From Ideonella livida (GTDB lineage Bacteria > Pseudomonadota > Gammaproteobacteria > Burkholderiales > Burkholderiaceae_C), in NCBI RefSeq assembly GCF_010499455.1, contig NZ_JAAGOH010000032.1, positions 1 through 48,395 on the forward strand: 48,395 bases of DNA, written 5' to 3'. Below the pieces are notes generated by a model. That model worked only from the letters and a program-made list of their open reading frames with translations, searched no databases and was not told where the DNA came from. Of the stretch, positions 28,282 through 43,241 are shown one piece after another (within the stretch, counting starts at the first letter, position 1; every line of letters starts with the position of its first letter). Made by a program: the position numbers and the translations under genes.

Positions 28282-28383
28282 GGGGGGCGGCGCGTAAATT
28301 CAACTTGAGTGGTGTTTGGTTACGGTGTCGTCCCATGAGCCTTTGGCCTGGCAAGATGGTTGGAAAAATGTTTAGGGGCGGCC

Positions 28384-29391
28384 ATGGACGAGATACATGC
28401 CAGTGATCTGAAGACCATCCTGCATTCCAAGCGTGCCAACTTGTACTACCTAGAGCATTGCCGGGTGTTGGTCAACGGTGGGCGGGTGGAGTACCTCACC
28501 GAACGCGGCAAACAGCAGCAGTACTGGAACATTCCCATTGCCAACACCACCACGGTGTTGCTGGGCACGGGCACCTCCATCACCCAGGCTGCCATGCGGG
28601 AGTTGGTCAAGGCCGGGGTGATGGTGGGTTTTTGCGGGGGCGGCGGCACGCCCTTGTTCGCCGGCACCGAGGCGACGCTGGAAGTCGCCTGGATGCCGCC
28701 GCAAAGCGAGTACCGGCCCACCGAGTACCTGCAGCAATGGGTGCGCTTTTGGTTTGACGAACCGCTGCGCCTGCAGGCTGCCAAGATGTTCCAGAAGGCG
28801 CGGCTGCTTCGGCTGCGTGACCACTGGATCCAGTCCAAAGCACTCAAAGAGCAGGGCTTTGAGCCCGATGGCCAGGCGCTGGAATCCTTGGTGTTGGGCA
28901 GTGCCTCGGCCCAGGCCATGGCGCCGGATCACACGGCCTTGCTCACAGAGGAGGCTCGGCTCACCAAGCAGCTGTACCGTTTGGCCGCCCAAGCCACTCG
29001 TTACGGCGAGTTCACCCGCGCCAAGCGTGGTGACGACCAACCCGCAGGCGGCGATGGCCCGGCCAACCAGTTCTTGGACCATGGCAACTACCTGGCTTAC
29101 GGGCTGGGGGCCACCGCCTGCTGGGTGCTGGGTTTGCCGCACGGATTGGCCGTGTTGCACGGCAAAACGCGGCGCGGCGGCCTGGTGTTTGACGTGGCCG
29201 ATCTGGTCAAGGACGCGGTGATCCTGCCCCAGGCCTTTGTGTCCGCCATGCGGGGCCACAGCGAACAGGCCTTCCGCCAAGCTTGTGTGGAAGCGCTCAC
29301 CCGCAGCGAGGCGCTGGACTTCATGATTGACACACTCAAGGCCACGGCAACGGCCTTGGGGCAACAAGTTCAGGCGGGGGCGCAGAAGTGA
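28384..29391 (+). CDS. cas1: type I-F Cas1 integrase
   Basis: A 335-residue Cas1 of subtype I-F. It makes the metal-dependent spacer integration cut at the leader-repeat junction together with Cas2-3. Likely metal ligands are a Glu near residue 190 (LLTEEARLTKQLYR), His259 (VLHGK) and Asp270/273 (VFDVADL). The start MDEIHASDLKTILHS matches the family, with AGGGG 5 nt upstream; a longer in-frame TTG start at 28360 was not used. The first gene of the cas operon. The 102-bp gap upstream (28282-28383) is A/T-richer than its surroundings, but I see no convincing -35/-10 pair. Confidence 0.97.
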   Translation: MDEIHASDLKTILHSKRANLYYLEHCRVLVNGGRVEYLTERGKQQQYWNIPIANTTTVLLGTGTSITQAAMRELVKAGVMVGFCGGGGTPLFAGTEATLEVAWMPPQSEYRPTEYLQQWVRFWFDEPLRLQAAKMFQKARLLRLRDHWIQSKALKEQGFEPDGQALESLVLGSASAQAMAPDHTALLTEEARLTKQLYRLAAQATRYGEFTRAKRGDDQPAGGDGPANQFLDHGNYLAYGLGATACWVLGLPHGLAVLHGKTRRGGLVFDVADLVKDAVILPQAFVSAMRGHSEQAFRQACVEALTRSEALDFMIDTLKATATALGQQVQAGAQK

Positions 29392-32300
29392 ACATCCTGC
29401 TGATCTCCCAGTGCGACAAGCGGGCCCTCACGCAGACCCGCCGGATCCTGGACCAGTTCGCCGAGCGGCGGGGTGACCGCACCTGGCAGACCCCCATCAC
29501 GCAAGATGGGCTGGACACCCTGCGCCGTCTGCTGCGAACTTCGGCGCGCAAGAACACCGCCGTGGCCTGCCACTGGATCCGGGGCATCGACCACTCTGAG
29601 CTGTTGTGGGTGGTGGGCGACCGCAGCCGCTTCAATGCCCAAGGCGCCGTGCCCACCAACACCACCACCCGCGATGTGTTGCGAGCCAAGGATGAAGACA
29701 CCTGGCAATCGGCCGGGCTGATTCGCCTGTTGGCTGACTTGGCCGGCCTGCTGCACGACTTGGGCAAGGCCACGCAGGCTTTCCAAATGCGCCTGTCTGG
29801 CAACTTGGAAGGCAAGAACCTCATCCGGCATGAGTGGGTGTCACTCCGCCTGCTGGAGTCGTTTGTCGGCTCAGACCCTGACGCGCAGTGGCTGCAGCGC
29901 TTGGCAGCCCCCACGGCGGCTGACGACGCGGCCTGGCTGACCCACTTGCGGCGTGACCATCTGGACGGCCCACAACCCTCGCCGTTCAAGGCCCTGGCGC
30001 ATGCCCCCTTGGCGGCCGCACTGGGTTGGTTGGTGGTCACCCACCACCGCTTGCCTCAGTTGCCCCATCGGTCCCAAGAGCAGCAAGTGCTTCAGCCTGC
30101 GACGTTGGTAGACCCATTGCAAGAGCTGGCGTCCTCTTGGAACGAGGATGCCTGCCTCAAGGAGCTGGACGCCGAGGCCTTTCGCCCCTATTGGACCTTT
30201 CCCCATGGCCTGCCCATGGTCACCCAAACCGCCTGGCGCCAACGGGCCAGCCGCGTGGCGCGTGGCCTGCTGCAGGTTCTGGCCCAAGCGGGCCCAGCGG
30301 TGCAGGCCGTTCCCGCCGATGCCTTTGTGATGCACCTCAGCCGCCTGTGCCTGATGCTGGCGGACCACCACTATTCCAGCCTGCAGGGCTCGCACCCTGA
30401 CCGGGTGAAGGGCGCACCAGGCTTTCCGCTGTGGGCCAACACCACGGCCCAAGGTGGGCGCAACCAAGGCTTGGATGAGCATCTGGTGGGGGTGGCCCAA
30501 CTGGGCGCGCTGGTGGGACGCTTTTTGCCGCAGGTGGCGCAGAACCTGCCGCATCTGGGGGAGCATCCCCTGCTCAAGAAGCGGGCCAAGCTGGATCGGT
30601 TCCGCTGGCAAGACCGCGCGGCAGAGTTGGCTGGTGGCCTGCGCGATGACTCGCGCCGCCAGGGGGCGTTCATCGTCAACATGGCGTCTACCGGCTGCGG
30701 CAAGACGCTGGGCAATGCCCGCATGATGTATGCGCTGGCCGACCCTGCCGTGGGCATGCGCTGTGCCTTTGCCATGGGCTTGCGCACGCTCACGCTGCAG
30801 ACCGGCCGGGCGTTTCGGGACATGCTCCGGCTGGACGATGACCAATTGGCCGTGCGCGTGGGCGGGTCGGCCAGCCAGGCGCTGTTTGAGTTTCACGAAG
30901 CGCGGGCCGAAAAAACTGGTTCAGCCTCTCAGCAAGCGCTGCTGGACGAAGACGGGCATGTGGACTTTGGCGGCGCGGTGGATGCCGACCCGCTGCTGCG
31001 CCGCGCCGTGGCTGACCCCACCGTGCGCAAGCTGCTGGTGGCGCCGCTCTTGGTCTGCACCATTGACCACCTGGCACCCGCGACGGAGAGCCAACGCGGC
31101 GGCCGGCAGATTGCCCCCATGCTGCGCCTGCTCAGTGGCGACTTGGTGCTGGATGAGCCAGATGACTTTGACCTGTCGGACCTGCCGGCCTTGACCCGCT
31201 TGGTGAACTGGGCCGGCTTGCTGGGCGCCCGGGTGCTGTTGTCTTCTGCCACGCTGCCGCCGGCGCTGGTGCACGGGCTGTTTGAGGCCTATCGCCAGGG
31301 CCGCCAGCTCCACCAACGGCACTGCGCAGATCGCCCCGGCCAAGTGGCCGCCCAGCCCGTTTGCTGCGCCTGGGTCGATGAGTTCCAGCAACAGGCCCAG
31401 CCCTGCGGAGATGGTGAAAGCTTCTTGGCCACGCATCAGCAATTTGCCCAGCGGCGCCACGCCCGCCTGGCCCAAGAGGCGGCCTCACCCCGCCGGCGGG
31501 CCGCCCTGTGGCCCTGGCCGGCCCAGCCACTGCCCAGCGGCATGGGCATGGCCGATCTGGCGGCGGACCTGGCCGCACAGTTGATGCAGGCGGCTGGGCA
31601 GTTGCACCACCACCATCACAGCATTGACCCGGTGACGGGGCGGCGTGTGAGCTTTGGCCTGGTGCGCCTGGCCAACATTGAACCCCTGTTTGAACTGGCC
31701 TTGGCTCTGTACCAGCAGGTGCCGCCCGCAGGGGTGCAACTGCATGTTTGCGTGTACCACGCACGCCATCCGCAACTGGTGCGCTCAGCCATTGAGCATG
31801 AGCTGGACGCCACCTTGCAGCGCCATAAGCCTGAAGCCGTGTTCTCACGCCCCAGCATCCGCCAGCGCTTGGATGCCACCGAGCAGCCGGACCACCTGTT
31901 CATCGTGCTGGGCAGCCCGGTCACGGAGGTGGGGCGGGACCACTGCTACGACTGGGCTGTGGTGGAGCCGTCTTCCATGCGGTCCTTCATTCAGTTGTGT
32001 GGGCGGGTGCGCCGCCACCACGGGGGCCCGGTCACGGAGCCCAACATCCTGATCCTGCAGCACAACCTGCGTAGCCAGCGCAGCCCGCAAACAGCCGCCT
32101 TCTGCTGGCCCGGTTTTGAAGGCGCCCCGGGTTCACCGTTTTCGCTGCGCAGCCATGACATGAAGACGCTGTTGCGCCCGGAGGAACTGCCGGTCATCGA
32201 CGCCCGCCCGCGGCTGTGCCTGCCAGCAGGAGGCAGCCTGGAGCCGCAGCGTTACCTGTCTGACCTGGAGCACGCGCGGCTGCAGCACGACATGCTGCCT

Positions 32301-32795
32301 CGCTCTTCGGTGCCCCCGCCCGCGCGCACCGCCAACCCACGGGCCAGGGCCCTTGCGGCGCAGAGCGATGCGCCAGCAGCGCCCGCCATCAATGCCAGCA
32401 GTTGGTGGCAGGCTGCCACACAGCGCGCGCAACTCACCGCCTTGTTGCAACAGAAGCAGCCGTTCCGCAAGACCACACAGCACGAGGTCACGGTGGCCCG
32501 GTTGCCAGATGAAGACGGCGACATCAAGCTGCATCAGCTCATGGGTCCAGGACATAAGAAGCTTTACCGGCCAGTAGAAGGCGAAGCTTGTGTGTCCATC
32601 GACGACGGGGCCCTCCAAGCTGAGCGTGTCGCCCCTTGGGCGGTGCCCGACTACGAGACCGCCCTCTCCGAGCTTGCCGAGTCCAAAGGCTTGTCACTGC
32701 GCCAGTGCGCCGAGCGCTTTGGCACCGTGACCGTGCCGGAGAGCGCCGGCGGCTGGCGATATCACCCGATGTTGGGCTTTGCCAAAGGCGTGTAG
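29388..32795 (+). CDS. cas3: Cas2-3 fusion nuclease-helicase
   Basis: An 1135-residue protein. Residues 1-95 or so form the Cas2 domain (MNILLISQCDKRALTQTRRI). The HD nuclease motif is HD123-124 in LLHDLGKATQ. The helicase has Walker A MASTGCGKT (432-440), DEPD (589-592), SSAT (619-622) and motif VI QLCGRVRRHH near 869. It degrades target DNA after Csy-complex recruitment, and with Cas1 takes part in spacer capture. The fusion of Cas2 to Cas3 is diagnostic for I-F. GTG start overlaps the cas1 stop by 4 bp. It is a little longer than the P. aeruginosa protein; catalytic motifs appear intact. Confidence 0.97.
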   Translation: MNILLISQCDKRALTQTRRILDQFAERRGDRTWQTPITQDGLDTLRRLLRTSARKNTAVACHWIRGIDHSELLWVVGDRSRFNAQGAVPTNTTTRDVLRAKDEDTWQSAGLIRLLADLAGLLHDLGKATQAFQMRLSGNLEGKNLIRHEWVSLRLLESFVGSDPDAQWLQRLAAPTAADDAAWLTHLRRDHLDGPQPSPFKALAHAPLAAALGWLVVTHHRLPQLPHRSQEQQVLQPATLVDPLQELASSWNEDACLKELDAEAFRPYWTFPHGLPMVTQTAWRQRASRVARGLLQVLAQAGPAVQAVPADAFVMHLSRLCLMLADHHYSSLQGSHPDRVKGAPGFPLWANTTAQGGRNQGLDEHLVGVAQLGALVGRFLPQVAQNLPHLGEHPLLKKRAKLDRFRWQDRAAELAGGLRDDSRRQGAFIVNMASTGCGKTLGNARMMYALADPAVGMRCAFAMGLRTLTLQTGRAFRDMLRLDDDQLAVRVGGSASQALFEFHEARAEKTGSASQQALLDEDGHVDFGGAVDADPLLRRAVADPTVRKLLVAPLLVCTIDHLAPATESQRGGRQIAPMLRLLSGDLVLDEPDDFDLSDLPALTRLVNWAGLLGARVLLSSATLPPALVHGLFEAYRQGRQLHQRHCADRPGQVAAQPVCCAWVDEFQQQAQPCGDGESFLATHQQFAQRRHARLAQEAASPRRRAALWPWPAQPLPSGMGMADLAADLAAQLMQAAGQLHHHHHSIDPVTGRRVSFGLVRLANIEPLFELALALYQQVPPAGVQLHVCVYHARHPQLVRSAIEHELDATLQRHKPEAVFSRPSIRQRLDATEQPDHLFIVLGSPVTEVGRDHCYDWAVVEPSSMRSFIQLCGRVRRHHGGPVTEPNILILQHNLRSQRSPQTAAFCWPGFEGAPGSPFSLRSHDMKTLLRPEELPVIDARPRLCLPAGGSLEPQRYLSDLEHARLQHDMLPRSSVPPPARTANPRARALAAQSDAPAAPAINASSWWQAATQRAQLTALLQQKQPFRKTTQHEVTVARLPDEDGDIKLHQLMGPGHKKLYRPVEGEACVSIDDGALQAERVAPWAVPDYETALSELAESKGLSLRQCAERFGTVTVPESAGGWRYHPMLGFAKGV

Positions 32796-32856
32796 CGCCA
32801 CCACGGCATAGTTGGTTGACACAAGTTTGATGACCGGTTTTTCTGGGAGAGCAAAG

Positions 32857-34164
32857 ATGGCACCACCCGATCCACAGCGAACTGAGGCCTTGCGCGCCTT
32901 GATAGAGGGCTTTCTTCAGCAGCGGCTGGCAGACAAGCTGGAGAAGTTAGACAAGAAGGAGAAAGCGGTCGAAAAGCTTGGCGCTGAGCAACTGTCCGGC
33001 CGAGCGGCGCTTTATGCAAAGTTCGAATACAAGACTTGGCTCGCAGACGCCGCTCGTCGGGTCGAAAAAGTTCAAGCCGTTACCCATTCCCTCAAGCCAA
33101 TCCACCCTGACGCCAAAGGTACAAATCTGTACTGCTTGCCCAGTACCTTGGCGCCGCTATCGGAGTTGGGCAGTCATGCGCTTGGCCAGCGCTTTGAAGC
33201 AGATGTAGTGTGTGACGCGCGCAATTTGGACGTCTACCAGTTTCTGAAGCTTCCGTTCCTAGATAAGACGCTTTGGGTCTTATGTGTCGAGTCAGACATT
33301 GACCTCGCCTCGGCTTTCAGCACCGATCCTGCTGAAGCGGCTCAATGGCTCGCTGCTTTCGCGAGCCTAGCTCAGCCAATTGGTCTGCTGGCTTCGCACA
33401 CTTTGGCCAAGCAGTTGTACTGGTTCACTGGCACCAATCCCCACAGCGATGCGGACTTTCACCTGTTGGCGCCGTTGTTCCCCACCTCACTGGTGCATGA
33501 GGTTCACTTGACGCTGCAGGAAGACCGCTTTGGTGATGCCGCCAAAGCGGCATGGGCTGCGTCCAATGCAGGTCGTTGGAGCTCGCACCCACTGCGCGAG
33601 TACCCCCAGCTGGCCTGCCGTCAAATGGGAGGTAGCAATCCTCAGAACATCAGCCAGCTCAACAGTGAACGGCGTGGCCAAAACCTGCTGCTGGCCTCTC
33701 TCCCGCCGGTGTGGGAGTCCGCAGCGGTCAAGCCCCTGCTGGGCGTGGGTTCGATGTTTGAGGCCATGGCCTGGCGCAAGAGCGTGCGGAACCTCCTCAA
33801 GTCGCTGCGTCAGTTCTTGGAAACGGACCCCGCCAACAACCAGCGCACGCGCGGCCACCGCGCCGACTTGGTGGAGCAACTCTTGGATGAACTCATGCAG
33901 CTGACCGCTGAGCAGCACACCCTGCCACCCGGCTGGAGCCAAGACCCGGCCTGCCACTTGCCCCAAGCCCAAAAGGCGTGGCTGGACCCTGAGGCTGCCC
34001 CTGAACCCGGAGATGACGCCCTGGACGAGATGGCGGCCGCCTTTGCGCGCTGGTTGAACCAACAACTGCGTGAATCACTGGCCATGGCGGATCCGGAGTA
34101 CCAGCACTGGCGCAAGCAGGCGCGTGAGCTGTTCAAACTGGCCGAGCGGGAGGGCGCGCTGTGA
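32857..34164 (+). CDS. csy1: Csy1 (Cas8f), large subunit of the I-F effector
   Basis: A 435-residue Csy1 (434 in P. aeruginosa). It binds the 5' handle of crRNA with Csy2 and reads the PAM. An N-terminal charged helix (ADKLEKLDKKEKAVEKLG) precedes the family region, which includes GGSNPQNISQLNSERRGQ, a hallmark of Csy1. ATG 32857 was chosen from several starts because GGGAG lies about 7 nt upstream; longer forms from 32812 or 32830 have no site. The first ~600 bp are clearly lower in GC than the rest of the gene (26 of 60 at 33241-33300 by hand count). Confidence 0.95.
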   Translation: MAPPDPQRTEALRALIEGFLQQRLADKLEKLDKKEKAVEKLGAEQLSGRAALYAKFEYKTWLADAARRVEKVQAVTHSLKPIHPDAKGTNLYCLPSTLAPLSELGSHALGQRFEADVVCDARNLDVYQFLKLPFLDKTLWVLCVESDIDLASAFSTDPAEAAQWLAAFASLAQPIGLLASHTLAKQLYWFTGTNPHSDADFHLLAPLFPTSLVHEVHLTLQEDRFGDAAKAAWAASNAGRWSSHPLREYPQLACRQMGGSNPQNISQLNSERRGQNLLLASLPPVWESAAVKPLLGVGSMFEAMAWRKSVRNLLKSLRQFLETDPANNQRTRGHRADLVEQLLDELMQLTAEQHTLPPGWSQDPACHLPQAQKAWLDPEAAPEPGDDALDEMAAAFARWLNQQLRESLAMADPEYQHWRKQARELFKLAEREGAL

Positions 34165-35225
34165 CGACCGACACGGTTCAACTCTCCGCCCCTGACCGCG
34201 CCGCCGTGCTGGTGCTGCCGCACCTGCGGGTGCAGGGTGCCAACGCCATCTCCAGCCCGCTGACCTGGGGCTTCCCGGCCATGACGGCCTTCACCGGCCT
34301 GATGACAGCGCTGGAGCGGCGGCTGGGCCCGCAAGCCGGCATCGCCTTTCTGGGTGTTGGGGTGGTCTGCCACGGCTATGAAGCGCAGGTTTCCGGGGGC
34401 TATACCCGAGCGTTTCACCTCAGCCGGCACCCCGTGCTGGCAGACGGCAGCAGCGCCGCCTTGGTGGAAGAAGGGCGGATCCACCTGGACCTGACGCTGG
34501 TCTTCTCCGTGGACCTGGCCAAAGAGCTGGTGGGTGACGCTGAACGCGCTGCCCTGGCAGCGCGTGTGGGCCACACGCTTGCCAGCATGCGCTTGGCGGG
34601 GGGTAGCGTGCTGCCACCCATAGGCGGGGTAGGGACAGGTGCGCGGCGCAAGGGCCACCCCAGCCTGGCCTTGCTGGCGGATGTTGAGGACGCCGAGGCA
34701 GGGCGGGCGCAGTTCCGCAAGCTGGCGCGGCAGTGGATGCCGGGCTTTGCCTTGGTCTCGCGCGATGACTTGTTGCAGAACCACTTGGCCCACATGCGGC
34801 AGGCCGAACCCGCCACCACGGTGTTGGACGCTTGGTTGGACCTCTCTCGCTGGAACAGCCAAGCCGCGCTGGCACCAGACCACGACGGTGAACCCACTGA
34901 CGCCACGCCAGCCACCTGGACCACGGCACCCCGCGCGGGGTGGACGGTGCCCATTCCTGTGGGCTTTGCCGGGCTCACCCCCTTGCAGGCCCCGGGCACG
35001 GTGGCGGGCGCACGCGACCGCAGCACACCCGTGCGCTTTGTGGAGACCGTCTGGTCCATGGGCCAGTGGATCAGCCCCCATCGCCTGCGCAGCCTGGCGG
35101 ACTTGGTTTGGTTCCCCGTCTACACCCCACCCACCGCAGAGGACAGCGCCCACGCGCTGTACCGCTGCGTCAATGAGTACACCCCCAGCCCAACCGTTTG
35201 GGCGCCAGAAGCCATCAACGGCTGA
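34161..35225 (+). CDS. csy2: Csy2 (Cas5f), effector subunit
   Basis: A 354-residue Csy2 that forms the tail of the Csy complex with Csy1. Family landmarks are LVLPHLRVQGANAISSPLTWGFP, and the late VRFVETVWSMGQWISPHR. GTG start overlaps the csy1 stop by 4 bp (GTGA), so they are translated together as a heterodimer. It is a little longer than the 327 residues in P. aeruginosa. Confidence 0.95.
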   Translation: MTTDTVQLSAPDRAAVLVLPHLRVQGANAISSPLTWGFPAMTAFTGLMTALERRLGPQAGIAFLGVGVVCHGYEAQVSGGYTRAFHLSRHPVLADGSSAALVEEGRIHLDLTLVFSVDLAKELVGDAERAALAARVGHTLASMRLAGGSVLPPIGGVGTGARRKGHPSLALLADVEDAEAGRAQFRKLARQWMPGFALVSRDDLLQNHLAHMRQAEPATTVLDAWLDLSRWNSQAALAPDHDGEPTDATPATWTTAPRAGWTVPIPVGFAGLTPLQAPGTVAGARDRSTPVRFVETVWSMGQWISPHRLRSLADLVWFPVYTPPTAEDSAHALYRCVNEYTPSPTVWAPEAING

Positions 35226-35250
35226 ACACTGAACTTCAAGGAGATCTTTC

Positions 35251-36294
35251 ATGGCTACCAAGGAAATCGCTCTCAAGACCGCTTCTGTGCTCGCTTTTGA
35301 GCGCAAGCTGGACCCGTCTGACGCCCAACTCTTCTCCGGCCGCTGGGATGCCCGCGCTGACGCCAAAGCGTGGGCGCCGGTCACGATCAATGAAAAGTCG
35401 GTGCGCGGCACCATCTCCAACCGGCTCAAGGCCAAGGACCAAGACCCGGCCAAGCTGGATGCCCAGATCGAGAACCCCAACCTGCAGACCGTGGATGTGG
35501 CCGCCCTGCCGGCCGATGCTGACACCCTGAAAGTCAGTTTCACGCTGCGTGTGTTGGGTGGCACGGGCACCCCCTCTGCCTGCAACAACGCCGACTACCA
35601 AGCCAAGCTGCTGGCCACAGTACATAGCTATGTGCAGGCCCATGGCTTTACTGAGTTGGCCCGGCGCTACGCCTTCAACCTGGCCAATGGCCGCTTCTTG
35701 TGGCGCAACCGGGTGGGGGCGGAGCAAGTGGAGGTGCACGTGACCCAGCTGGTGCAGGGCGCACCCACCCAAGCCTGGACCTTTGACGCCCTGGCCATGC
35801 CCACACGCAGTTTTGACGCCCCGCCAGCCAAGGCTGCTGACCTGGCTGCGCTGGCCGATGTGATCGCCCAGGGCTTGGCAGGCAGCAGCCATGTGCTGCT
35901 GCAAGTCACGGCATTTGCACGCATCGGAGCCGCCCAAGAGGTGTATCCGTCGCAAGAACTCATCTTGGACAAGGGCAACAGCAAGAAGAGCAAGACGCTG
36001 TACCACGTGAAGGGCGTGGCGGGCATTCACTCCCAAAAGCTGGGCAACGCGCTGCGCACCATCGACACCTGGTATCCCGGCGCTGAAGACCTGGGCCCCA
36101 TCGCCGTGGAGCCGTATGGCTCGGTTACCACGCTGGGCAAGGCCTTCCGTGCGCCGGGAGCGGGCAAGCAAGACTTCTACAACCTGCTGGACAACTGGAT
36201 CCTGAAGGACCGGGCACCTGAGCTGGTGCAGCAACACTTCGTGGTGGCCACCCTCATCCGGGGTGGCGTGTTTGGCGACGCGGGCAAGGACTGA
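35251..36294 (+). CDS. csy3: Csy3 (Cas7f), backbone subunit
   Basis: A 347-residue Cas7-type RNA-binding subunit (342 in P. aeruginosa), of which six copies coat the spacer part of the crRNA. Landmarks are [28 protein letters not shown]-like ([15 protein letters not shown]) and the C-terminal [19 protein letters not shown] strong AAGGAG site precedes the ATG, fitting a subunit needed in excess; the 25-bp gap before it is the longest after csy1. Confidence 0.96.
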
Positions 36295-36297
36295 GCC

Positions 36298-36918
36298 ATG
36301 GCACCTTTCGATGAAGGTGCGGTGGCGCCAACCAGCCACTACCTGGAATTGACGCTTCATCAAGACCCGGACTTCACCGAAGCCCAGCTGATGAGCGCAC
36401 TCATCAACAAGCTTCACCGCGCCTTGTTTGACCAACTGGCCATACACGGTGCTGCCAGCAGTGTGGGGTTGAGCTTTCCGGCCTACCGGCCCCGGCCGGG
36501 GGGCTTGGGGCGATCCGTTCGCCTTCACGGCAGCGCGCAAACCCTAGGTCTCCTCATGGCTACCACCTGGCTGACTGGATTGCGAGATCACCTGCAACAG
36601 CCAAACCCGGACATCTTGCCGGTGCCGGGCAGTGTGGTGGCGCACCGCGTAGTGCAGCGGGTACAAGCCCAGAGCAACCCGAATCGGCTGCGCCGGCGTT
36701 GGTTGAAGCGTCATCCGGGCGAAGCCCCCGAAGTGGCAGAGGCAGCATTTCCTGCCGAAGCGGCAGAGAAGCTCGACCTGCCATTCATTCAGCTTCGCAG
36801 CCGCAGCACGGGACAGCCCTTTCCGCTGTTCGTGCGGCAGGTCGTCTCCGCAGCCAAACCGGGGACCTTCAATGCCTATGGCATGGGTTTGGACGGCTCC
36901 ACCGTGCCTTGGTTCTGA
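36298..36918 (+). CDS. cas6f: Cas6f (Csy4), crRNA endonuclease
   Basis: A 206-residue repeat-specific ribonuclease. The catalytic His is His40 in INKLHRALF (His29 in P. aeruginosa numbering); the Ser is in LRSRSTGQPF; the Arg-rich helix that reads the stem is NRLRRRWLKRH. The end NAYGMGLDGSTVPWF matches the family. It cuts at the base of the repeat hairpin and stays bound. It has about 11 extra N-terminal residues over the reference. The start follows the csy3 stop by 3 bp. Confidence 0.96.
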   Translation: MAPFDEGAVAPTSHYLELTLHQDPDFTEAQLMSALINKLHRALFDQLAIHGAASSVGLSFPAYRPRPGGLGRSVRLHGSAQTLGLLMATTWLTGLRDHLQQPNPDILPVPGSVVAHRVVQRVQAQSNPNRLRRRWLKRHPGEAPEVAEAAFPAEAAEKLDLPFIQLRSRSTGQPFPLFVRQVVSAAKPGTFNAYGMGLDGSTVPWF

Positions 36919-36963
36919 TCACCTGGCAGCCCAAAATTGCCGGCGCCACCCACGGTCCTTAAG

Positions 36964-36976
36964 AATCAATCACTTA
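36964..36976 (+). promoter_or_regulatory. distal IHF site in the leader
   Basis: AATCAATCACTTA matches the WATCAA-N4-TTR consensus at every fixed position. It is 84 bp from repeat 1. IHF is known to bend I-F leaders for Cas1-Cas2-3 integration. Confidence 0.7.
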
Positions 36977-37030
36977 CGCCTGATCTGAAAATTTGGGTCT
37001 GATGGCGCCGTTCGGACAAAACTCTTTGAC

Positions 37031-37043
37031 AATCAACGGTCTA
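37031..37043 (+). promoter_or_regulatory. proximal IHF site in the leader
   Basis: AATCAACGGTCTA matches WATCAA-N4-TTR with one mismatch. It ends 16 bp before repeat 1, the position expected for a DNA bend at the leader-repeat junction. Confidence 0.6.
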
Positions 37044-37059
37044 GAAAAAGCCTCTTCTA

Positions 37060-40000
37060 GTTCACTGCCGCACAGGCAGCTCAGAAAAGAAGGAGAAGGC
37101 GAGACGACGCGACCGGAAAGTTCACTGCCGCACAGGCAGCTCAGAAAGCCAACAGCGACGCGCCAAGCGCCTTCATCGCGTTCACTGCCGCACAGGCAGC
37201 TCAGAAATGATCGGCCACCGCAGTGCCCGCAAACCATCCGTTCACTGCCGCACAGGCAGCTCAGAAAAGCAGCAGCACGCCTAGCAATGTGGTTACTGTG
37301 TTCACTGCCGCACAGGCAGCTCAGAAATGGTGCGACGAGGAGACGGCAGCGGCTGAAGCGTTCACTGCCGCACAGGCAGCTCAGAAAGCTCAAGTGACGC
37401 TGGACGTTGTGGCCTGAAAGTTCACTGCCGCACAGGCAGCTCAGAAATCCTGGCGGTTTTGTCTCTGGCTGCCGAGGTAGTTCACTGCCGCACAGGCAGC
37501 TCAGAAATGTTCGTGCGGCTGGGGGTGGGCGGGGGACTCGTTCACTGCCGCACAGGCAGCTCAGAAAACCAAGACCGGCGGTGTGCACACGCCCATCGCG
37601 TTCACTGCCGCACAGGCAGCTCAGAAAACAGTGGCTTCACCGAGCACCAAGACCCCGGAGTTCACTGCCGCACAGGCAGCTCAGAAAGAGACCGGCGAGC
37701 GCGTGCAGGTGTTCACCGCGTTCACTGCCGCACAGGCAGCTCAGAAATCTGTAAAACCCGCAGGACATATGCACCTATTGTTCACTGCCGCACAGGCAGC
37801 TCAGAAATGGACGACGCAGGATGTTTCCGGGGTTTTCTCGTTCACTGCCGCACAGGCAGCTCAGAAAATGGAGCTGCGCAGCCGCCAATACCCGTCTGTG
37901 TTCACTGCCGCACAGGCAGCTCAGAAAATTTGTACCCCTTCCGATCGCTGGCGCGGATCGTTCACTGCCGCACAGGCAGCTCAGAAAATGAAGCGATCCC
38001 GGCTGTAGACCGTGGCGACGTTCACTGCCGCACAGGCAGCTCAGAAATTGGGTGTACTCGGCATATTCCAGCGCGAGCTGTTCACTGCCGCACAGGCAGC
38101 TCAGAAAACAGGGCCCATGCGAAGGCGCAGCCCAGGAGGGTTCACTGCCGCACAGGCAGCTCAGAAATGTCAGAGCTGGCAGGGTCAGGGGCAGGCCCGG
38201 TTCACTGCCGCACAGGCAGCTCAGAAAACCCGGCGGGCCATGTCGCGCAGGCTCACCTCGTTCACTGCCGCACAGGCAGCTCAGAAATGCAGGTTCAGTC
38301 CAACGTGCAGGCCTGATGCGTTCACTGCCGCACAGGCAGCTCAGAAATGGGGCAGGATGTGCTGCAAGTCGAGGTCGTCGTTCACTGCCGCACAGGCAGC
38401 TCAGAAACTGGGGATTGAGTACGTCCTGCTGAGGGAGAAGTTCACTGCCGCACAGGCAGCTCAGAAATTTGCCAAGCGCGTGCAGGGCCACATGGACACG
38501 TTCACTGCCGCACAGGCAGCTCAGAAATCGGCAATGAGCGTCAGCGATCCGGCGGCCATGTTCACTGCCGCACAGGCAGCTCAGAAAACGCTGATCCCCA
38601 GTGCCGTCAGCAGGTCGGCGTTCACTGCCGCACAGGCAGCTCAGAAAACGAGATACGACCCGGCGGGACTAGTGCCGCCGTTCACTGCCGCACAGGCAGC
38701 TCAGAAAACCCAGGCGCGCGCTGATGATCGACGGCAGCGGTTCACTGCCGCACAGGCAGCTCAGAAAGAGCGACGACTCGCCGCGGATCTCCACCACGCG
38801 TTCACTGCCGCACAGGCAGCTCAGAAAAGCTCCCGAAGCTTCATGCTTCGGACAGCTTCGTTCACTGCCGCACAGGCAGCTCAGAAATGCGCCAGCAGCA
38901 TGGGGATGAGTGGATCGACGTTCACTGCCGCACAGGCAGCTCAGAAAACGAGGGCGCGGACAGTGACGTTGTGGAATGGGTTCACTGCCGCACAGGCAGC
39001 TCAGAAATGAAGGCGGGGGAGTTGGACGGTGGAGCGCTGGTTCACTGCCGCACAGGCAGCTCAGAAAATGCTTGCGCGCTGGGCGCACGCGATGATGCGG
39101 TTCACTGCCGCACAGGCAGCTCAGAAACACGCGCTCAGACCTCGTTCCTGCCGCGATCAGTTCACTGCCGCACAGGCAGCTCAGAAAACTCCCGGCGCCG
39201 GACGGGAAGCCGGCACACCGTTCACTGCCGCACAGGCAGCTCAGAAAAGCAGCGCCATCAATTCCAGGGCGCTCAGGCGGTTCACTGCCGCACAGGCAGC
39301 TCAGAAAAGGTGGCCACCGCTGGCGGCGTGCTGCGCCTGGTTCACTGCCGCACAGGCAGCTCAGAAATTTTCCGACACCGCCCCACGCGACCGTTTCGCG
39401 TTCACTGCCGCACAGGCAGCTCAGAAATTTTGCCCGGGCCGCTGCGAGCTGTGCGGGCAGTTCACTGCCGCACAGGCAGCTCAGAAAGAAAAGTGCGGAG
39501 GCCAGAACGCTCTAGCCAAGTTCACTGCCGCACAGGCAGCTCAGAAAAACGAGATATTGAGCGAGTACGGCCTTCCTCCGTTCACTGCCGCACAGGCAGC
39601 TCAGAAACGCTCAAGTCACCCTCGACGTGGTGGCCTGACGTTCACTGCCGCACAGGCAGCTCAGAAATTGACGCCCTTGTTGTAGGCGGCGCGGGCTTTG
39701 TTCACTGCCGCACAGGCAGCTCAGAAACTCATGGATGGGCGCAGCGACATCTATGACCCGTTCACTGCCGCACAGGCAGCTCAGAAATACGCTAGCGCTT
39801 ACGGCGAGCGTGCGCTGACGTTCACTGCCGCACAGGCAGCTCAGAAACCACGGGGTGTCCTTCAACTTGATCACGTCACGTTCACTGCCGCACAGGCAGC
39901 TCAGAAAATCCGCGGCTTTTGGATCGGGGACGAATGGCTGTTCACTGCCGCACAGGCAGCTCAGAAATAAGGCGGGTGGCATTGCCGATCGTGTCCTTAG

Positions 40001-42667
40001 TTCACTGCCGCACAGGCAGCTCAGAAATTTCATCGGTCTAATTGCGTCGCTCACAAATTGTTCACTGCCGCACAGGCAGCTCAGAAATATGACCCCGACC
40101 GGCGCGCGATGGCGGCGGCGTTCACTGCCGCACAGGCAGCTCAGAAACTGCAGAACCGCGGCCCGCAGGCGCTCACCGCGTTCACTGCCGCACAGGCAGC
40201 TCAGAAATGGTCGAGCAGGGTGGAGTTTTCGCCCACGGTGTTCACTGCCGCACAGGCAGCTCAGAAATCCACGCCCATCGAGGACGTGCGCATGATGAAG
40301 TTCACTGCCGCACAGGCAGCTCAGAAAGTGCGCATGAAAACGCTGCGCGTGAAGATGGGGTTCACTGCCGCACAGGCAGCTCAGAAAACCACGATGGGGC
40401 GGCCGGTGTGCGGCACTTCGTTCACTGCCGCACAGGCAGCTCAGAAATGTGCAAAGCTGCCGTGGCGGGCGCTCCAGCCGTTCACTGCCGCACAGGCAGC
40501 TCAGAAAACGACCTGCACTAGCAGAGATCGACGTCTTCGGTTCACTGCCGCACAGGCAGCTCAGAAATCAGGTGCTGCGCACCTTGGCTCAAGGCTTCGG
40601 TTCACTGCCGCACAGGCAGCTCAGAAATGAGACGTAATTGGAGCAACGCTCGCTGGTACGTTCACTGCCGCACAGGCAGCTCAGAAATCATCATGATTCG
40701 GAATGCCACAAAGCCGGAAGTTCACTGCCGCACAGGCAGCTCAGAAAACGAATGACGCTCTGTCCAAGAGCCAGTTTGTGTTCACTGCCGCACAGGCAGC
40801 TCAGAAATTCTGGGCTTTCCAGCGCCACGCGGGGCATGCGTTCACTGCCGCACAGGCAGCTCAGAAAGCCCGGTGAGCCTGTCCGCGGGACGTGCAGCCG
40901 TTCACTGCCGCACAGGCAGCTCAGAAAACACTCGCGCCCGTCGCGCCGCCGGTGGAGAGGTTCACTGCCGCACAGGCAGCTCAGAAACTGCGCACCGTCT
41001 GGGAGCCCTAAACCATGGCGTTCACTGCCGCACAGGCAGCTCAGAAAATGAAGACTGCCTCGTGGGAGCGCAGCGCACTGTTCACTGCCGCACAGGCAGC
41101 TCAGAAAATGAAGACTGCCTCGTGGGAGCGCAGCGCACTGTTCACTGCCGCACAGGCAGCTCAGAAAATGCGCACCGAACAGGAGCCGGCTTTCCTCTGG
41201 TTCACTGCCGCACAGGCAGCTCAGAAAGCAATCGCCAATTGGGTCTGGTTCCACCCTCGGTTCACTGCCGCACAGGCAGCTCAGAAAAGGCAACGGCGAC
41301 CACCTGCCGCTGATGTACCGTTCACTGCCGCACAGGCAGCTCGGAAAAGAGCACGGCGTTTCTGCCGAGCACATCGAGCGTTCACTGCCGCACAGGCAGC
41401 TCAGAAAATCGCAACCCAACAGAAAGACGGAAATGCTTTGTTCACTGCCGCACAGGCAGCTCAGAAATACGACCGCGGCCAGTTCAACCGCGACGAGATG
41501 TTCACTGCCGCACAGGCAGCTCAGAAAACACGTGGCCGCTATCGACAGTGGGCACAGGAGTTCACTGCCGCACAGGCAGCTCAGAAATTCAGGTGCGCAG
41601 CACCTGGGCTGTAGCTGTTGTTCACTGCCGCACAGGCAGCTCAGAAAAGTGCGCGGGCCATCTCGTTGGTCACGTCGATGTTCACTGCCGCACAGGCAGC
41701 TCAGAAATTGGGAGTGGCGACGAACCTGCTGGGAACGCAGTTCACTGCCGCACAGGCAGCTCAGAAAACAATCCAGCGCAGCAGCACAACACCCGTGCCG
41801 TTCACTGCCGCACAGGCAGCTCAGAAATGGACGATTGCCGTGATCGCGGGATGCAGGATGTTCACTGCCGCACAGGCAGCTCAGAAATTCACCGTAGGGC
41901 GGGAATAGTCTGGCTGGGGGTTCACTGCCGCACAGGCAGCTCAGAAATGACGGCGCCACGGTGACGCGAGAATTCCACGGTTCACTGCCGCACAGGCAGC
42001 TCAGAAATGGGTCCAGATGCGCGAATCGCTCAGAGGGGTGTTCACTGCCGCACAGGCAGCTCAGAAAACCAGCGCCTTGGCAAGGCTGCGCTCCAGGACG
42101 TTCACTGCCGCACAGGCAGCTCAGAAATTGTTCAGCAGTCCAGACGATGCAATCCGCGGGTTCACTGCCGCACAGGCAGCTCAGAAAAAGTGGCGCGCAC
42201 CAGCTCCCCCGCATCCGCCGTTCACTGCCGCACAGGCAGCTCAGAAATGACGGAGCCGCGTTTCCTGTCGCAGGGTTCGGTTCACTGCCGCACAGGCAGC
42301 TCAGAAAACATGCGGCCCTCTTCAAGCGCCCGCTTCCATGTTCACTGCCGCACAGGCAGCTCAGAAATGCAGGAGCAGGACGAGCGCCGAGAGGCAGCGG
42401 TTCACTGCCGCACAGGCAGCTCAGAAATCAGCGCCGTTGCGGGCGCGGAGGAACGCCAGGTTCACTGCCGCACAGGCAGCTCAGAAAAAGGTCCGAGCGA
42501 TAGAGGAAGCCGACATTCTGTTCACTGCCGCACGGGCAGCTCAGAAATCTGGCTCGACCACGCGCTCTTCAATGCTGACGTTCACTGCCGCACAGGCAGC
42601 TCAGAAATGGTGATCGCATCGCGGATCAGCCGACGATGAGTTCACTGCCGCACAGGCAGCTCAAAAG
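37060..42667 (+). CRISPR. type I-F CRISPR array, 94 repeats and 93 spacers
   Basis: A 28-bp repeat recurs with an exact 60-bp period from 37060 to 42640, so each of the 93 spacers is 32 nt. The repeat starts GTTCACTGCC, folds as CTGCC-GCACA-GGCAG, and ends CTCAGAAA, the 8-nt crRNA handle; this is the I-F class. Transcription is plus strand, leader first. Repeats are identical except at 41320 (A24 to G), 42520 (A15 to G, in the loop) and the terminal one at 42640 (G25 to A, A28 to G). Spacers are GC-rich and many read open, fitting phage or plasmid coding DNA. Long ORFs across the array are artefacts of the multiple-of-3 period. Confidence 0.99.
41048..41139 (+). repeat. tandem duplicate spacers 67 and 68
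   Basis: The 32 nt at 41048-41079 and 41108-41139 are identical, with one normal repeat between them. This is one repeat-spacer unit duplicated, probably by recombination between repeats. Confidence 0.97.
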
Positions 42668-42685: not shown

Positions 42686-42832
42686 GACTGAAGTGCAACA
42701 CCTCAACTGGGTCAATGACTTGAAGCGATGGGCCAAGCATATTCAAGCCTGAGCATGGAGGAGCGCACGCAGATCAGCCTGCTGCTGAGCCAGGACGTCA
42801 AGCCCAGCGAGATCGCTCGGCAACTGGGCAGG
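42686..42832 (+). pseudogene. truncated IS30-family element
   Basis: From ATG 42728 the first 35 codons read YSSLSMEERTQISLLLSQ and on to PSEIARQLGR, the N-terminal helix-turn-helix of IS30-family transposases. Similarity stops at about 42832, before the catalytic DDE domain, so it is a dead 5' fragment. The left end may be the GACTGAAGTGCAAC stretch at 42686, 19 bp after the last CRISPR repeat, but I did not verify it as a terminal repeat. The 110 bp after the fragment, up to the frmR operator, are G/T-rich and show nothing I recognise. Confidence 0.75.
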
Positions 42833-42944
42833 TGCAGGGCCCGTTGGTCGCTTGTGGCGGGCAGTGTGCGGTGCGCGGCCTGTGGTGCGGAGAGCCGGTG
42901 TGGTGAACAGCGTTGTGGGTGGCGCGGCGGCCTTGTCCTTCATA

Positions 42945-42959
42945 TACTGGCCCCCAGTA
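42945..42959. promoter_or_regulatory. FrmR operator overlapping a -10 box
   Basis: TACTGG-CCC-CCAGTA is a perfect 6+6 dyad around a C tract, the form used by the RcnR/FrmR/CsoR regulators. A good -10 (TATACT at 42943-42948) overlaps its left half, so bound FrmR would block RNA polymerase. It is 18 bp before the frmR ATG. Confidence 0.75.
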
Positions 42960-42977
42960 CCTTGGAGGCCTTAGGCC

Positions 42978-43241
42978 ATGCCCCACGCACCTGAAGACAA
43001 ACGCAAGGCCTTGGCCCGCGTGCGCCGCATCCGCGGCCAGGCCGAGGCGCTGGAGCGCGCGCTGGAGGCTGGCGCAGATTGCGCGCCGGTGCTGCAGCAG
43101 TTGGCGGCCATTCGTGGCGCGGTCAATGGCCTGATGTCCGAGATCCTGGAGTCGCACATTCGTGAGGCGTTGGCCGCTGACCGGCCTGCCGGCGAGCTGG
43201 CGCAGGACCTGACGGCCCTGGTGCGCTCTTACCTGCGCTGA
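42978..43241 (+). CDS. frmR: formaldehyde-responsive repressor
   Basis: An 87-residue all-helical repressor of the FrmR/RcnR family. It keeps RVRRIRGQAEALERALE at the start, Cys35 (the formaldehyde-reactive residue, which crosslinks to the N-terminal amine at Pro2, here also present as MP) and His60 in ILESHIRE. It represses frmRAB until formaldehyde modifies it. The gene is followed by a 99-bp gap rich in pyrimidines before frmA. Confidence 0.95.
   Translation: MPHAPEDKRKALARVRRIRGQAEALERALEAGADCAPVLQQLAAIRGAVNGLMSEILESHIREALAADRPAGELAQDLTALVRSYLR

Follow-up and report, generated by a model that had tools for sequence, protein, structure and literature searches.

Two spacers of a type I-F CRISPR array in Ideonella livida probably record the same gene end in two related invaders

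How did two spacers from separate parts of one CRISPR array come to spell the same protein end in different nucleotides? The question is raised by a locus of Ideonella livida, in a window of 48,395 nt (the whole stretch of DNA that was analysed; it is contig C32 in a draft assembly of 104 contigs and 5.26 Mb). The initial annotation had seen in spacers 6 and 43 two captures, made at different times, of one C-terminal site in two related phages or prophages. The type I-F cas operon of this locus is complete according to PADLOC, with its six genes in order on the + strand (28360-36918), and Rfam CRISPR-DR4 gave 94 matches in the array beyond it (Table 1). Spacer length is 32 nt in 93 of 93 spacers, and 91 of the 94 repeats carry the exact consensus, so that the array shows little drift; the altered repeats are distal, at 41320, 42520 and 42640. 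In loci of this kind, the leader usually lies on the cas side. The position of the array suggests that the leader is likewise next to cas6f here, in which case spacer 6 is the younger of the two. An 88-aa frame just beyond the array on its distal side (42728-42994) shows a weak match to HTH_38, below the Pfam cutoff; by eye it resembles the start of an IS30-type transposase, of which we presume it to be perhaps a remnant.

Table 1. Positions in the window of the cas genes, the array and the spacers discussed
Feature	Position	Strand	Evidence or reading
cas1 (type I-F)	28360..29391	+	PADLOC Cas1f, E 2.8e-148
cas2-3 fusion (type I-F)	29388..32795	+	PADLOC Cas23f, 1192.7 bits
cas8f / csy1	32812..34164	+	PADLOC Cas8f, E 8.5e-110
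cas5f / csy2	34161..35225	+	PADLOC Cas5f, E 1.6e-89
cas7f / csy3	35251..36294	+	PADLOC Cas7f, E 3e-147
cas6f / csy4	36298..36918	+	PADLOC Cas6f, E 2.9e-47
Presumed leader, 141 bases, cas6f to first repeat	36919..37059	+	Position only
Type I-F CRISPR array, 94 repeats of 28 nt, 93 spacers	37060..42667	+	Rfam CRISPR-DR4
Spacer 6 (presumed newer)	37388..37419	+	A-Q-V-T-L-D-V-V-A-stop, frame from first base
Spacer 21	38288..38319	+	Q-V-Q-S-N-V-Q-A-stop; candidate third, more diverged capture
Spacer 43 (presumed older)	39608..39639	+	A-Q-V-T-L-D-V-V-A-stop, frame from second base
Spacer 92	42548..42579		Matches TerL coding site W-L-D-H-A-L-F-N-A-[DN]

Aligned at a 1-nt offset, spacers 6 and 43 are identical at 26 of 31 bases. 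The differences fall at positions 9, 12, 15, 21 and 31 of spacer 6; the first four occupy third codon positions and are all synonymous in A-Q-V-T-L-D-V-V-A-stop, while the fifth lies after the stop. The spacer numbers and coordinates of the initial annotation were exact, and this alignment confirms the shared peptide end with synonymous differences that it had described. In spacer 43 coordinates, positions 2-9 are matched and the mismatches fall at 10, 13, 16, 22 and 32, so at the level of the spacers the older one is an imperfect fit to the element that gave the newer one.

This likeness exceeds what was obtained from simulated arrays. When the 4278 spacer pairs within the array were each compared in both orientations, spacers 6 and 43 had an ungapped local score of 22, the highest of any non-identical pair, and spacers 59 and 76 came next with 16; the best pair per simulated 93-spacer array scored 12-16 (20 simulations). 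Counted as identities over offsets of -2 to +2 on both strands, the best pair per simulated 92-spacer array reached 18-23 (300 simulations) against 26 for the real pair. The simulated spacers came from first-order Markov models of the real ones and thus test the likeness by composition only. Spacers 6 and 43 are also the best non-identical pair among 320 spacers from this array and the arrays of two sister genomes, where the next pair scores 18, the simulations covering the single array. With four differences placed at random among the 30 coding bases, the probability that all occupy third positions in a given frame is 0.0077, a value uncorrected for six frames.

The distribution of silent changes also bears on the strand of the captured gene. 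All four differences are synonymous in the forward frame, three of four in the reverse frame and none in the other four frames. Read on the opposite strand, both spacers give Q-A-T-T-S-[S/R]-V-T-stop, and a gene with this end and one amino-acid change could have been captured instead: the frame is open, the stop is present in both spacers and three of the four changes are silent there, but an S/R change is needed where the forward frame needs none. Searches of viral_contigs with a degenerate reverse pattern returned no matches, and the degenerate forward pattern, with or without the first Ala, likewise returned none there. We consider a gene on the other strand unlikely. As far as the spacer letters tell, the forward frame is the likely coding strand, likely rather than proven because the reverse frame is three-quarters synonymous and both spacers carry its stop as well.

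Taken together as sequence, spacers 6 and 43 quite probably go back to two separate acquisitions by the type I-F system, at different times, from homologous protospacers in two diverged relatives of one mobile element, most likely phages. The captured site would span the final nine codons of one gene together with its stop. Alternatively, a spacer could have been duplicated within the array and mutated later, with no second capture. Exact duplicates do occur, both in a sister array and in this one, where the adjacent and identical spacers 67 and 68 (41048-41139) represent a usual array duplication. However, a drifted copy would not be shifted by 1 nt at both ends, four coding changes that all fall on synonymous third positions are not expected from drift, and the exactness of 91 of 94 repeats speaks against it too, which leaves this origin very improbable.

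Two captures of one site also have to account for the 1-nt offset. In the available text of a study on type I-F acquisition, the PAM is given as GG at the protospacer 3' end, that is, CC before the spacer sequence (PMC5059440). The array does not hold the upstream bases, but the codon before GCT was probably CCC (proline), providing overlapping CC PAMs; spacer 43 would have the first two C's as its PAM and spacer 6 the last two, which would explain the offset. A 1-nt slipping of Cas1:Cas2-3 would be another explanation, and such slipping is described for type I-F acquisition in the same text (PMC5059440). The site itself was not obviously favoured for capture, because spacer 6 begins with G and spacer 43 with C, a minority of 15 of the 93 array spacers, the other 78 beginning with A or T.

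Protospacers for spacers 6 and 43 were searched for in IMG/VR, INPHARED phages, PLSDB plasmids, genome_contigs, sampled genomes of the family and the genus, and the host's own genome, and none was found in any of these sets. The best reading of the sequence is still that one gene end was captured twice, from two diverged relatives, as the initial annotation had proposed, with a putative gene, CC PAM and phage or prophage origin; we do not count the missing source in these sets against a phage origin.

Several partial matches were set aside. In viral_contigs, the relaxed pattern Q-V-x-[L/F]-D-V-x-A-stop matched six loci, two of them possibly real gene ends. In one (L017, 5600-5645, - strand), the gene ends in ...GRPVQAQVGFDVFA-stop, its stop overlaps the next start and the contig edge cuts the gene; it lies upstream of a head-tail adaptor gene and is faintly like the spacer 6/43 peptide, probably through selection by the pattern. 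The other (L018) has ...RLNQVVFDVAA-stop in a 159-codon frame opposite a 689-codon frame. In L018 (7085-8291, - strand), the 159-codon frame ends ...NNERMRVRLNQVVFDVAA-stop and an adjoining 99-codon frame contains ...RRERMRVRLEQVV..., so that the two frames appear to form a small repeated gene or element of a 117-kb viral contig. We did not accept either locus as a homologue of the captured gene, because the search pattern itself selects most of the likeness. The remaining four loci lie opposite a longer frame, in a 13-codon frame in one case and in frames of 31-123 codons in the other three. The pattern V-T-L-D-V-V-A-stop matched three loci in viral_contigs, each in a short frame that faces an open frame of 766-1527 codons on the other strand, and a flexible-residue variant matched two, with apparently real ends (...VQLTFNFVA-stop) on two closely similar contigs, which were put aside as a matter of judgement, given their gene content. 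The single match in genome_contigs (84,980 species) comes from a Bacteroidales MAG, where it runs antisense to a long frame.

With both spacers as query in distant mode, INPHARED gave 8 records and PLSDB 12, all at E 2-9. The only one for spacer 6 was a Cupriavidus match of 22 of 23 bases, internal to a protein that we take to be EAL-type, and hence attributable to chance; the others, all for spacer 43, were set aside on their E-values and listed features. In the host's own genome, at up to 3 mismatches, only the array matched, so self-targeting or a host element as the source was dropped. The exact peptide had no match outside the array in 399 genomes of the family. At up to 3 mismatches, 12 other genomes of 397 matched, three with a stop, out of frame or antisense, and nine without the final stop in the printed match; these are taken as chance because a backward control pattern matched 26 genomes (hand count). 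Across 16 genomes of the genus, no match outside the array was found at up to 2 mismatches. Spacers 1-46 of the 93, joined and compared with 60 genomes, matched at E <=0.5 in 52 of them, own array included, and nine of the ten regions fetched had no CC upstream and were chance-like, in host genes. In the tenth region, spacer 11 matches the sister genome G407 (L048, contig C187) at 27 of 32 bases, with CC upstream and four of the first six bases mismatched. Compared with plasmids, the whole array gave 30 records; their coverage is broad and of low identity, as is to be expected where the plasmids carry CRISPR arrays of their own.

Spacer 92 provides a positive control for the capture of phage coding sites. 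The whole array gave 10 records against phages, and seven of these are spacer 92 on TerL of four Burkholderia phages, some deposited twice (DC1, BcepIL02, BcepMigl and CSP3). Relative to DC1, spacer 92 has, read by eye, three synonymous differences and one N/D change; the bases upstream of the match in DC1 itself are CA, not CC, and none of the TerL homologues is the exact source. Among 80 IMG/VR loci with relatives of the DC1 TerL (kept from 122 found), spacer 92 matched at 24-28 of 32 bases in 59, and CC lies upstream in 26 of these. All 93 spacers together gave 66 matches of at least 24 of 32 bases, 59 of them from spacer 92, against four for shuffled spacers. These matches indicate that phage coding sites are sampled by the array, even where the exact source phage has not been recorded. 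In the 80 loci (of 122 found), spacers 6, 43 and 21 had no match of at least 24 of 32 bases, and the best likeness to the captured gene end scored 18 among 11,300 frames, against 40 for identity and 24 for the L017 gene end scored alongside. The phages behind spacer 92 therefore have near relatives that are known, whereas for spacers 6 and 43 even a near relative is missing from the searched sets.

Whether the first capture promoted the second is a separate question. Upon invasion by the second relative, the crRNA of spacer 43 would have met a target matched at 2-9 (and at 1 if the preceding codon is CCC) and mismatched at 10, 13, 16, 22 and 32, that is, distally, and capture may then have been primed near the site. 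In type I-F systems, matches near the PAM combined with distal mismatches suit weakened interference or priming, and the exact outcome is not predictable. Primed type I-F acquisitions cluster near the primed protospacer, as reported in the available text of PMC5059440. Given a real double capture, we consider it about equally probable that spacer 43 did or did not prime the capture of spacer 6. Coincidence disputes only this step: in an array of this length, a birthday effect could yield two independent captures from related phages with neither priming nor a hotspot. A rough estimate, with genomes of 60 or 40 kb and all CC PAMs equal, puts the probability of at least one same-site pair at 0.02-0.03 if 20 spacers derive from one phage family, at 0.05-0.07 for 30 and at 0.14-0.20 for 50, but these values depend on the number of spacers from one family, which was assumed to be 20-50. 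With a probability of 0.02-0.20, priming is not required, and if one family is over-represented among the 93 spacers, a single same-site pair can arise without any special process. Independent capture by coincidence is accordingly a serious possibility, to which we give somewhat less than even weight.

Other spacers were considered as further cases of repeated capture. Spacer 21 has its stop 1-2 nt from the phase of spacers 6 and 43 and a C-terminus-anchored BLOSUM62 score of 13, against 11 for a spacer of a sister array; among 1000 simulations of a 91-spacer array, 2.4% gave a score this high, a figure that flatters spacer 21 because the likeness was noticed before testing. Its source was searched for with no matches in viral_contigs and one weak phage match (E 3). 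As a third capture, spacer 21 is thus a weak, post hoc candidate. In a bolder scheme, spacers 6, 21 and 43 would be three dated snapshots of the same gene end in three phage lineages, each within 2 nt, with the site re-captured through priming by older spacers at their own mismatched site, a memory-updating loop on a single protospacer; we regard this as improbable.

Spacers 59 (40568-40599) and 76 (41588-41619) have in common a hairpin-like core, TCAGGTGC-NNN-GCACCT-NGGCT, with a different loop in each (TGC or GCA). Their score of 16 is also reached in simulated arrays. In the host's own genome, the core has no full match elsewhere, one place with one mismatch and ten with two. The likeness may be due to chance, or the two may form a further same-site pair that covers a terminator-like element.

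The sister species G380, of the same genus, carries a 151-spacer array with the same repeat, in which two pairs of non-adjacent spacers are identical (80/120 and 89/115; L142, contig C14). These pairs have different neighbours and a non-collinear order, which fits repeated capture of one site. In contrast to spacers 6 and 43, their identity records no divergence of the source.

Overlapping spacers have been described in Legionella pneumophila Toronto-2005, whose type I-C system holds pairs against the Legionella mobile element LME-1, and the available text of that report reads the overlapping old and new spacers as possible natural priming (PMC5071653). As in the LME-1 pairs described there, one strain has spacers for overlapping stretches, of which the newer fits the present variant and the older matches it imperfectly (PMC5071653); in I. 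livida the overlap is seen at the level of the spacers alone, as 26 of 31 bases at a 1-nt offset. In that text the system is I-C and the element known, whereas here the system is I-F and the target element was not found; the variants of LME-1 involve a seed or PAM mutation, while those recorded here are synonymous changes outside the seed (PMC5071653).

A second comparison is offered by Pectobacterium atrosepticum, in which primed and naive type I-F acquisition were studied by experiment with known plasmids (PMC5059440). The available text reports a GG/CC PAM, mostly 32-nt spacers, 1-nt slipping and clustering near the primed protospacer (PMC5059440), and the excess of spacers starting with A or T is common to that system and to the present array, at 78 of 93 (PMC5059440). 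In contrast to the experiment as described there, the array of I. livida is natural and its target was not found (PMC5059440).

The initial annotation had further spoken of a protein under selection being hit twice at one spot. Purifying selection on the protein would explain the synonymous pattern, but it does not explain the second hit, for which recurrent exposure and an available PAM, possibly with priming, are enough. The pair is a clear and ordinary case of the same kind of invader recorded twice and reveals no new process, overlapping old and new spacers having been published before, as the available text of PMC5071653 shows. Read as a double capture, spacers 6 and 43 would be a clean natural record of one host's encounters with two diverged relatives of the same element, and A-Q-V-T-L-D-V-V-A, probably with a preceding proline, would serve as a nine-residue C-terminal tag by which that element may be recognised once it is sequenced.
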